From Saprospiraceae bacterium (lineage in GTDB: Bacteria > Bacteroidota > Bacteroidia > Chitinophagales > Saprospiraceae): a stretch of 64,000 nt of DNA. The stretch lies in NCBI GenBank assembly GCA_021739645.1, contig JAIPBL010000006.1, forward strand, positions 1-64,000. Reading direction: 5' to 3'. Positions 12,836 through 16,171 of this stretch are shown here, piece by piece. Numbering within the stretch: position 1 is the first letter of the stretch; the number at the start of each line of letters is the position of its first letter. Under the pieces are notes generated by a model, which was given only the letters and a program-made list of their open reading frames with translations, was not told the origin of the DNA and made no database searches. The position numbers were made by a program, and so were the translations under genes.

Positions 12836-13588
12836 ATGTTGATTGATTCAAATTCACACATGTATCCATTTAGGCCAAAATTTGCCAAAACATTAATCCT
12901 GTTATTCACAGCTCCCTCTTTTCTGCTGGCACCCATTCTTTTCTCTGCCTGTACTCCAAACCCTGGCCAAGGAAATGATAATCCTGAAAACAAGGACCTT
13001 GAAGTAAGTAAAAAAATGGAGGCTGTTACCGATGTTGATGGCCAGGTTTACAAAATCATAGAAATTGGCGACCAGGTGTGGATGGCAGAAAATTTAAGGA
13101 AAACAACATTTGAATGCGACAGCAATGTGCAAGTGAAGTTTACCAATGGCATCGAGCGGGGGCCCGGTGTCGCATTCTACGACGGCAAGCCACGCTATGC
13201 CTATTACCAGAATAATCCAAACTTGGGTTTCGGAGTAATTTATAGCTTCGGTGCATTGCAGCACTGCAAGCTTTGTCCGCCCGGCTTCAGGATTCCGACG
13301 AAAGCGGACTGGGAATTATTGGTCAGTGAACTCGGTGGAAAGTCAGTGGCAGGTATGGCATTGTTGCCAGGCGGCAAAAGCGGGTTCAAAGCTGAAATGG
13401 GAGGACGAATAGACGCTTACGGCTCTGGCATGGCCGGCAGTTACGGATTTTGGTGGAGTTCCGAACAAGGTTCGATACCATTAGGCAATTCGGAGGTCTA
13501 TAATTTTGGAGTCACATCGAAGGGTATTGTTATAATCAGTAGCCAAGATTCCCGGGTGGGCATCTACGTAAGGTGCATCAAAGAATAA
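12836..13588 (+). CDS. FISUMP-domain lipoprotein
   Basis: 250 residues. Lipoprotein signal with lipobox LFSAC (Cys about residue 39); the ATG at 12860 (MYPFRPKF) would also serve. The mature part matches the Fibrobacter succinogenes major paralogous (FISUMP) domain: VTDVDGQVYKIIEIGDQVWM, AENLRKTTF, then CPPGFRIPTKADWELLVSELGG, FKAEMGGRID, YGFWWSSEQ and a terminal YVRCIKE. The domain is C-type-lectin-like and found on many Bacteroidota cell surfaces; the ligand is not known. Confidence 0.85.
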   Translation: MLIDSNSHMYPFRPKFAKTLILLFTAPSFLLAPILFSACTPNPGQGNDNPENKDLEVSKKMEAVTDVDGQVYKIIEIGDQVWMAENLRKTTFECDSNVQVKFTNGIERGPGVAFYDGKPRYAYYQNNPNLGFGVIYSFGALQHCKLCPPGFRIPTKADWELLVSELGGKSVAGMALLPGGKSGFKAEMGGRIDAYGSGMAGSYGFWWSSEQGSIPLGNSEVYNFGVTSKGIVIISSQDSRVGIYVRCIKE

Positions 13589-13925
13589 ATAAGGGTTAAG
13601 TTCACGGTGCATCAAGCTCACCTCTTTTTTTAACAACAACCGAATTAGAATGGAATAACCTCTGGTGGAAAAAGAGGTTACTTTAAACAGCTTATCGTTG
13701 CCAAGGGTAACTGACAAATCTTGCGAATGGATTTTTCAATTCATACGGATTCTGAGGGACGGGCAAGCGGGTTTGTTTTCACGGAAAGTCAAGGTTGGAC
13801 AGCGGTTGAGCGGTGATTTGCTTTTGATTTTGAATACCGATAGCGATTGAGGGCAATGGTAGAAAGTTGGAGGGAGACGGGAAGAAGGAATAAGCGGTGA
13901 AAGGCTGTTTTAGTGTTAAGCTATT
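13589..13925. other. Non-coding stretch before the BLUF-cyclase gene
   Basis: No gene is seen. A short hairpin (AACCTC with GAGGTT, about 13649-13682) is the only visible structure. The BLUF-cyclase frame is open from 13926, but those codons begin with TTG and precede the family's usual start. Confidence 0.4.
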
Positions 13926-14000
13926 TTGGTGTATTCAATGGGGGAAAATGCTACATTCGCTCGATTTGAAAAATTTGAAAATAGCTACTTAAATAGCAAG

Positions 14001-15047
14001 ATGATACGACTTACCTACATCAGTTCCATTGGTAAACAAGCCACAGCGAAAGACATCCGGGCCATCGGTGCGGTTTCCGAGGAAAACAACGAACGAGACG
14101 GCCTGACCGGTGTCCTGCTTTGTTTCAGGGGCGTTTTTTACCAAATCATCGAGGGAGAAGAAGCGTCCTTGTACCGTTGTTTCGACCGAATTAAGGCGGA
14201 CCCAAGGCACAGAGACCTCTTTGTTTTGAATGTCGAAAAAGACATCCCAGAGCGGATGTACACGCAATGGAAAATGAAAACGGTTTTCCTCGACAGTGAG
14301 GAGTACCCGTTGGTCATGCCTATCCGAAACCTCTTGGATTCATTGACCCAGACGCACCGAGTACTCAAGCAATATGCCCCCTACGAAGTCCTGGATGGGT
14401 TACAAAACGGCGAAGACCCTTTGGCCTGGGAATTCAAACGGGAAGAGCTTATTGTCTTATTTTCGGATATCATTTCCTTTACCGCCATCACCGAAAAAAT
14501 CAACCTCGCCGAAATGCAGGAATTGCTGGGTGCTTATTTCGGCATCGCCTCAGAGGCAATTGTCAAATCAGGAGGAAGAATCGCCAAACTGACTGGCGAC
14601 GGTTTCATGGCTTATTACCCGGCTTCACAAGCTGCCTCGGCGCTCCAGGCCTCACTGGAAATCATCCGGAAACTCAAAAAGCAACGGGAGACAACGGTCT
14701 CACCCTTCCTGAAACTGGCCTACTGTGGCATCGGTCTCTCGGCTGGAAGTGTGGTCATGGGCAACATCGGAGCTGACACCCGGCAGGATTACACCATCCT
14801 GGGCGATGTTGTCAACTCTGCCTCCCGCTTGGAATCTTATACCCGAGAGGCCGGTCATTCCATTTTGTTCGATGACCGATTCCGGAATTATTTGGAAAAA
14901 TCGCCCACCATCATCCCCATCCTGCAATTGGGAGAGCAAACGCTCAAGGGCAAATCAAAAACGCTGACCGTTTACACGGTGGACAATGCGGACGTTCGGT
15001 TTGACCGGACGCCGGAAGAAATTACTCGTGAAATCAGGGAAATCTAG
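14001..15047 (+). CDS. BLUF-domain class III adenylyl cyclase (photoactivated cyclase, bPAC-like)
   Basis: 348 residues from the ATG at 14001, chosen because BLUF proteins begin MxRLxYIS; the frame is open further upstream (ATG at 13938). Residues 1-100 are a BLUF domain with the photocycle residues in place: Tyr6 (LTYIS), Asn29/Asn30, Gln48 (VFYQIIEGE), Trp90 and Met92 (TQWKMKT). A linker (SLTQTHRVLKQYAP) resembles the corresponding part of Beggiatoa bPAC. Residues about 148-330 are a class III cyclase: metal Asp156 (LFSDIISFT) and Asp200 (LTGDGFMAYY), adenine-specifying Lys196 and Thr265 (DYTILGD), and transition-state Asn272/Arg276 (VNSASRLE). Length and order match bPAC. It should make cAMP in blue light. 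No cAMP-dependent regulator is seen in the window. Confidence 0.93.
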   Translation: MIRLTYISSIGKQATAKDIRAIGAVSEENNERDGLTGVLLCFRGVFYQIIEGEEASLYRCFDRIKADPRHRDLFVLNVEKDIPERMYTQWKMKTVFLDSEEYPLVMPIRNLLDSLTQTHRVLKQYAPYEVLDGLQNGEDPLAWEFKREELIVLFSDIISFTAITEKINLAEMQELLGAYFGIASEAIVKSGGRIAKLTGDGFMAYYPASQAASALQASLEIIRKLKKQRETTVSPFLKLAYCGIGLSAGSVVMGNIGADTRQDYTILGDVVNSASRLESYTREAGHSILFDDRFRNYLEKSPTIIPILQLGEQTLKGKSKTLTVYTVDNADVRFDRTPEEITREIREI

Positions 15048-15214
15048 ACTGTGTCCGGATTTTGGTGCGAGGGCTGCTGAAGAAATGTATCACATCGGTT
15101 GGTGATTTGCTTTTTAAAATGAAGTAGCAAGGCAGGAGCTTGGAAATTTGCCTTGAAACACTGACCGGGGTATTGGGCTGCAAAACCCCAATTCTTGCTA
15201 CATTTACCACCCCA

Positions 15215-15262
15215 CCCCAAAACTCAAAATTTGTAACCAATAACTCAAAACTCAAAACTATC
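15215..15262. repeat. Short tandem array (CAAAACT units) at a start codon
   Basis: Several AACTCAA/CAAAACT units run up to the ATG of the ROK kinase gene. One of several arrays of this design in the window with differing unit sequences. Confidence 0.7.
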
Positions 15263-16171
15263 ATGCCCATCTGGGGAATAGACCTTGGCGGCACCAAAAT
15301 CGAGTGCGCTGTCATCGAAAGCATTGAAACCAGAAACGTATTGCTCCGCAAACGGCTACCGACCGAGCAGGAGCATGGCTACCAGCATATCCTCCAGCAG
15401 ATTAAAAAACTGGTGGAAACGGTGGCAGACGAGGTGGGTTTTCAGCCTGATAAAATCGGCTTCGCAACCCCCGGCACCCTCGACCCCAAGACGCAAACAC
15501 TGAAGAATTCCAATACCGTCTGCCTGAACGGGATGCCGCTCAAGGCCGACTTGGAGTCCATCCTCGGTGTACCCTGCGAGCTGGCCAACGACGCCAACTG
15601 CTTCGCCCTCGCCGAGGCCAAATGGGGCGCTGCGCACGATGTCGCACCCAATGCCGAGGTGGTTTGGGGAATTATTTTGGGCACGGGCGTGGGCGGTGGT
15701 GTGGTCGTGAACGGCAAGGTGCTGAAAGGCAAGCACGGCATCGGCGGCGAGTGGGGTCACAGCTACCTCGACATGAGCGCATATTCTTGCTACTGTGGCA
15801 ACCGGGGCTGCGTGGAGCAGGTGCTTTCGGGCCCAGCTCTCACCCGTTTTTACAACGAAAAAACGGGCCGGAACCTCACCCTGCCCGAAATCGTCGAGCG
15901 TTTTTACGAGGGAAACGACGATGCGGCGAAGGCCACCATGGAGCGCCTCGTGCATTTCTTCGGAAAAGGAGCTGCCAATGTGATGAACGTCATTGACCCC
16001 GATGTGGTGGTCATCGGCGGTGGGGTGGGGAACATTGACCTGCTTTACACAGCGGGCGTGGAAATGGTGAAAAAATTCATTTTCAACAGCGGGAAATGCG
16101 AGGCGATTTTCCTGAAACCCAAGCTGGGTGACAGCGCTGGGGTGTTCGGGGCGGCGCTGCTTTGTGCGTGA
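15263..16171 (+). CDS. ROK-family sugar kinase
   Basis: 302 residues. The ATG at 15263 begins MPIWGIDLGGTKIECAVI, the ROK/ASKHA phosphate-1 motif; the upstream frame is repeat sequence. Other family marks: ANDANCFALAEA with the catalytic Asp, GTGVGGGVV, the His of GIGGEWGH, and the zinc-binding signature CYCGNRGCVEQ. C-terminal VVIGGGVGN completes the ATP site. It probably phosphorylates glucose or a related hexose at O6 in the cytoplasm; the substrate cannot be fixed from sequence. Confidence 0.88.
   Translation: MPIWGIDLGGTKIECAVIESIETRNVLLRKRLPTEQEHGYQHILQQIKKLVETVADEVGFQPDKIGFATPGTLDPKTQTLKNSNTVCLNGMPLKADLESILGVPCELANDANCFALAEAKWGAAHDVAPNAEVVWGIILGTGVGGGVVVNGKVLKGKHGIGGEWGHSYLDMSAYSCYCGNRGCVEQVLSGPALTRFYNEKTGRNLTLPEIVERFYEGNDDAAKATMERLVHFFGKGAANVMNVIDPDVVVIGGGVGNIDLLYTAGVEMVKKFIFNSGKCEAIFLKPKLGDSAGVFGAALLCA

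Follow-up and report, generated by a model that had tools for sequence, protein, structure and literature searches.

The stretch of DNA analysed here (the window, 64,000 nucleotides of a Saprospiraceae contig) carries an intact gene for a protein of the BLUF–class III cyclase family, which is very probably a blue-light-activated adenylyl cyclase judging by its sequence and predicted fold. Taking together its residues, its model and the analogy with OaPAC and bPAC, we hold it highly likely that the gene encodes such an enzyme in a soluble, homodimeric form. In our phylogeny, the protein stands apart from both of these photoactivated adenylyl cyclases (PACs) and joins a branch composed mostly of spirochaete sequences.

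The Gene and Its Product

The open reading frame runs from an ATG to the stop without interruption (Table 1) and encodes 348 amino acids. An alternative TTG start located 5' of this ATG would extend the frame to 373 residues; against it, Met is the residue at the match start in 53 of the 57 PAC loci described below. Both Pfam domains scored over their curated cut-offs, BLUF at residues 1–93 (E 7.8e-25) and Guanylate_cyc at residues 148–323 (E 4e-14). Thus, a single chain opens with a BLUF domain at its N-terminus and continues with one cyclase domain of class III, which is the PAC domain order, and the complete gene reported in the initial annotation is indeed there. A scan of positions 13500–15400 for sigma-70-type promoters gave 0 matches (shuffled sequences gave 2.2 on average); a Bacteroidota host may use another promoter type.

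Table 1. Features of the putative photoactivated adenylyl cyclase gene; coordinates are those of the window
Feature	Coordinates	Strand	Evidence
Complete gene for a BLUF–class III cyclase protein (photoactivated adenylyl cyclase type), 348 aa	14001..15047	+	ORF, Pfam, matches, fold
BLUF (blue light using flavin) domain; Tyr6, Asn30, Gln48, Arg63, Asp67, Trp90, Met92	14001..14279	+	
Linker, modelled as two helices (residues 105–125, 128–135)	14280..14441	+	AlphaFold2 model
Class III cyclase domain; metal/active-site Asp156, Asp200, Asp269, Asn272, Glu278; also Lys196, Thr265	14442..14972	+	

The BLUF part has the photoactive pair Tyr6 and Gln48, accompanied by Trp90, Met92 and the flavin-pocket Asn30, while the cyclase part has the two metal-binding aspartates (Asp156 and Asp200) and the active-site Asn272 and Arg276 of class III adenylyl cyclases. 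Lys196 and Thr265 align with Lys196 and Thr266 of OaPAC, and we take them to be the base-selecting residues that choose ATP. Asn30 aside, these are the ten residues picked out in the initial annotation, and each sits where it was placed there. In an alignment of 28 PACs including the window protein, nine of the ten columns were invariant (28/28), and Arg276 was kept in 27/28. All key residues are also retained in the Bacteroidota relatives at 56% and 50% identity.

Likeness to PACs of Solved Structure

Among solved structures, the window protein gave full-length matches to OaPAC (E 1.6e-79) and bPAC (E 2.8e-74), values that leave no room for a chance likeness. Identity amounted to about 40% end to end in both cases, with 139 of 341 aligned residues identical in OaPAC and 130 of 325 in bPAC. 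OaPAC is therefore equally close, and bPAC, chosen as the point of comparison in the initial annotation, is not a special relative.

According to the available text of PMC11533990, the flavin pocket of OaPAC comprises Tyr6, Lys29, Asn30, Gln48, Arg63, Asp67, Met92 and the much-debated Trp90, and its metal site comprises Asp156, Asp200, Asp270, Asn273 and Glu279. Seven of the eight pocket residues are identical in the window protein, the exception being Lys29, which is Asn there and in bPAC, and all five metal-site residues are kept. The two proteins share numbering at Tyr6, Gln48, Trp90, Met92, Asp156, Lys196 and Asp200, and OaPAC runs one above the window protein from its Thr266 onward. The earlier remark that many residues lie at the bPAC positions minus one fits Tyr6, as the corresponding bPAC variant is called Y7F in the same available text (PMC11533990).

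An AlphaFold2 monomer model built from 28 sequences reached a mean pLDDT of 88.6 and a pTM of 0.72, with the linker as its least confident part (blocks at pLDDT 63–82 between residues 91 and 140). When the model was compared with the PDB by Foldseek, ranks 1–23 were all OaPAC or bPAC entries, aligned over the full length with TM-scores of 0.75–0.92, and rank 24 was the bPAC cyclase domain alone; here, we take entry 5m27 and those beginning with 5mb to be bPAC.

By analogy with OaPAC and bPAC, we infer that the window protein binds flavin, forms a dimer, is controlled by light and prefers ATP. FAD would be held in the BLUF domain, where blue light would rearrange the hydrogen bonds among Tyr6, Gln48 and the flavin; the switch would then pass through the linker helices and bring about a change at the dimeric cyclase, if the OaPAC/bPAC mechanism can be carried over. 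It might be objected that the linker supposed to carry the signal is the stretch modelled with the lowest confidence, and that the activity of OaPAC is strongly tuned by its C-terminus (as far as the accessible part of PMC6937261 goes), which differs in the window protein. Such a BLUF-cyclase could bind flavin and cycle with weak or opposite light coupling, or be active mainly constitutively. We consider this unlikely, given that the Tyr/Gln/Trp/Met set is invariant in 28/28 aligned PACs and that total length and linker register correspond, with few gaps, to what OaPAC and bPAC show, much as the initial annotation had described for bPAC. Overall, a light-driven source of cAMP, as proposed there, still appears to be the best reading of the sequence, the residues and the predicted fold.

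cAMP and Other Cyclic Nucleotides in the Host

The host genome comprises 6.16 Mb in 147 contigs, is 99.68% complete and bears out the earlier attribution of the protein to Bacteroidota. It contains one BLUF match and ten matches to class III cyclases, of which one is under the family cut-off; the ten include the PAC, two PycC-like genes and two matches within one 1381-residue frame. The cAMP made by the PAC would thus come on top of that from the host's remaining class III cyclases.

The genome search for CRP-family or other cAMP-binding proteins, suggested in the initial annotation, returned seven cNMP-binding matches, which we aligned with a known CRP-family regulator and PycTIR as yardsticks. 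A Glu...Arg pair like the one with which these yardsticks bind the cyclic phosphate was found in the CRP-like proteins of contigs C28 and C101, spaced as in the CRP-family regulator, and in the effector of contig C56, spaced as in PycTIR; it was absent from the other four of the seven proteins in this alignment. The residues following the Arg are unusual in the C28 and C101 proteins, and so we regard these two as cAMP receptor candidates only. The C56 effector is part of a Pycsar-like locus (G000 contig C56, about 36.2–39.2 kb; L006:312-3024), in which two cyclases flank one effector, and it is not expected to read cAMP. The order within the locus is a PycC-like gene (348 aa), a cNMP-binding and TIR effector (320 aa) and a second PycC-like gene (244 aa). 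The effector matched the PycTIR model at E 1.9e-94 and the solved PycTIR 8jsj at E 1.2e-43.

Class III cyclases differ in substrate, and since a PycTIR-like effector and two PycC-like genes are encoded in the same genome, messengers besides cAMP may operate in the host cell. One could therefore imagine that the light-driven cyclase yields cGMP or a pyrimidine cyclic nucleotide. This seems very unlikely to us: Lys196 and Thr265 are as in OaPAC and invariant in 28/28 aligned PACs, and the PAC lies on contig C86, whereas the PycC–PycTIR–PycC locus lies on contig C56. Adenylyl cyclase activity remains our preferred reading.

Phylogeny of the Window Protein

Genome contigs from 84,980 species were scanned by a search that requires one of two peptide patterns and thus misses some PACs; it gave 204 relatives. 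Of the best 80, both domains are covered in 57 and the cyclase part alone in 23. Our tree is composed of 56 rows, namely 53 of the 57 PAC loci, the window protein, OaPAC and bPAC; L090 and L104 (partial) as well as L093 and L097 (in-frame stop) were dropped. Most rows are metagenome bins, and the midpoint root serves for drawing only. At L020:2467-2484, the PAC start reads MCIRDR..., which looks to us like an assembly or adapter artefact, not protein, and was omitted from the alignment.

A split supported at 100/99 divides the tree into a branch of 15 rows and the remaining 41 rows, among them OaPAC, bPAC and the PACs of cyanobacteria. The 15-row branch is formed by 11 spirochaete rows, two other Bacteroidota, the unassigned bin L061 and the window protein. 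The latter forms a pair with L049, a gene from Cyclobacteriaceae (56% identity, support 98/91), and the Bacteroidia bin L056 joins next (100/100). L056, L053, L055, L059 and L061, all near the window protein, were flagged as long branches of unsure placement. When six long-branched or oddly composed rows (L050, L082, L096, L100, L101 and L102) were removed, the 15-row branch persisted at 100/100 with its inner groups unchanged. Membership in a bPAC/OaPAC subgroup is rejected by this topology, with and without the six rows. In terms of kinship, then, the label "bPAC-like" of the initial annotation does not hold, the window protein belonging to another well-supported branch together with spirochaete PACs.

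Two further PACs from the same family, L083 and L091 (from family genomes G121 and G153), are found across the split, near Flavobacteriaceae, Desulfobacteraceae and Riflebacteria rows. Constraining these two and the window protein to one clade lowered lnL by 157 (p-AU 1.5e-110), and uniting all seven Bacteroidota rows lowered it by 88 (p-AU 4.3e-4); both values come from a quick tree with groups named post hoc, and the p-values are therefore not strict. With the Bacteroidota rows split in this way and their joint clades rejected, PACs of two separate branches appear to be present in the phylum.

Distribution in the Family, Genus and Phylum

The PAC gene looks rare at all three levels. Among the matches listed, a full-length PAC was present in at least 4 of 298 family genomes, one of which (G094) has an in-frame TGA. 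Within the genus, it was found in 1 of 14 genomes, the others being listed at 78–100% completeness, and of 395 genomes drawn from the phylum, only the window's own gave a full-length match (E ≤ 1e-40). In the Saprospiraceae genome G094 (L022:1501-2517, the same DNA as L093), the TGA stands at codon 90, aligned with Trp90, which would mean either that the gene is broken or that the sequence is in error. The congener G691 (78% complete) retains a truncated remnant of an orthologous PAC (L148:3249-3407, G691:C5), in which the 77% identity ends at codon 47, right ahead of the photoactive Gln, and unrelated sequence takes over; it lies on a 3,497-base contig with neighbours unlike those in the window. 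Such a remnant indicates that the gene seems dispensable in the genus. Plasmid records gave 537 matches, of which one covered at least 80% of the query (26.7% identity, from residue 43), and no plasmid PAC of the window's kind was found among them.

Keeping in mind the tree and this patchy distribution, the gene may well have entered the lineage laterally, out of a gene pool that Leptospira-like spirochaetes also share. Yet repeated changes of phylum label do not in themselves prove a transfer or its direction, considering the midpoint root, the long rows next to the window protein and the prevalence of metagenome bins. That the contig or the gene is a binning contaminant foreign to the host is hardly credible: the genome is listed at 3.33% contamination and no full-length copy was found in the 13 other genus genomes, but the two genes directly downstream share about 80% of their DNA sequence with congeners, tying the contig to the genus, a congener carries the 77% identical remnant, and the G+C and GC3 of the gene (0.506 and 0.605) are within the range of 30 hand-picked window ORFs, where it ranks 10th lowest on both.

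Genomic Neighbourhood

As the initial annotation had it, the neighbours offer no functional clue. The ROK kinase–oxidoreductase pair downstream of the PAC is also present in three congeners (in one of them with the oxidoreductase cut by the contig end), where it stands beside other genes upstream and no PAC match was found. The PAC gene thus occupies a variable spot. When window ORFs of at least 100 aa were compared with the flanks of the PAC loci (E ≤ 1e-10), only general two-component proteins and one oxidoreductase (L056) matched; the spirochaete PAC flanks had no neighbours in common with the window save a general histidine-kinase match in L075.

In some relatives, the surroundings are suggestive of light-related genes, though only suggestive. 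In a Leptospirales bin (L055:1046-8893), one flank of the PAC carries, beyond a single intervening ORF, genes for a MerR/B12-binding regulator, for amine-oxidase-like and cyclopropane-synthase-like proteins and for DUF1365. On the other flank, there are a second cyclopropane-synthase-like ORF, overlapping the PAC end by 11 bases (a mechanical overlap), and DUF1295. To our eye, this cluster resembles light-inducible LitR/CarH clusters; none of its markers turned up at any other PAC locus (E 1e-6). A gene for a DUF2867 NAD(P)-binding oxidoreductase adjoins the PAC in three bins of different families (L049:7146-8597, L093:891-2309 and L096:4434-5870), that is, in 3 of 57 PAC loci versus 0 of 23 cyclase-only loci, although cases are few and flanks unequal. 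The PAC of the closest relative is also adjoined by a 919-aa cyclase-NB-ARC-TPR protein (L049:3075-5834).

Near the window PAC, we found neither the L055-type markers nor DUF2867. Elsewhere in the host genome there are one DUF2867 gene and two photolyase-family genes, with no match to DUF1365; a rhodopsin search of the host genome gave no match, and the control genomes were likewise without one.

Comparison with Known Photoactivated Cyclases

Known PACs come from cyanobacteria, Beggiatoa, Euglena and spirochaetes, and such enzymes serve as optogenetic tools. The two full-length PACs with solved structures that we found lie on one side of the tree, while the window gene and its relatives mark the other; they therefore widen the choice of enzymes, possibly with other dark activity and kinetics. 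The window gene also offers a natural case of what a light-made pulse of cAMP does in a Bacteroidota cell already holding other cyclases. The legend of Figure 5 in PMC4844311 places Bacteroidetes/Chlorobi and Spirochaetes among the phyla with LOV or BLUF proteins. Among the papers listed in our search of mostly openly accessible literature, none dealt with a Bacteroidota PAC or with BLUF proteins in Saprospiraceae.

OaPAC from Oscillatoria acuminata (PDB 4yus, 5x4t, 8qfe and 9f1w) combines the same BLUF and class III cyclase domains in the same register. It differs from the window protein in reading GDC instead of GDG after the second metal Asp, in its position across the main split and in its longer C-terminus (366 aa in all, according to the available text of PMC11533990, versus 348 aa). 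bPAC from Beggiatoa (PDB 5m27 and 5mbj) likewise agrees in domain order and key residues, but in the tree it pairs with a Thiomargarita PAC (L084, support 100/98), not with the window protein.

The spirochaete PACs of the branch (11 rows, including L051–L055, from uncharacterised bins of Leptospira-like and other spirochaetes) are 39–47% identical to the window protein, from which they differ in phylum, and the GDG motif recurs in 11/11 of them. Among characterised enzymes, TpPAC of Turneriella parva is reportedly a BLUF protein. The reference list of PMC6937261 names it as a photoactivated adenylyl cyclase of a spirochaete, and it is thus plausibly the closest characterised relative of the window protein. 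LprA of Leptospira kobayashii, as described in the accessible text of PMC9043183, forms cAMP in a light-dependent manner when expressed in E. coli and has an influence on swimming; its authors consider its N-terminal domain distinct from BLUF and LOV, unlike the BLUF domain of the window protein. Overall, we are dealing with a known kind of enzyme, a PAC, and what is new is a Bacteroidota member with an unexpected position in the tree.
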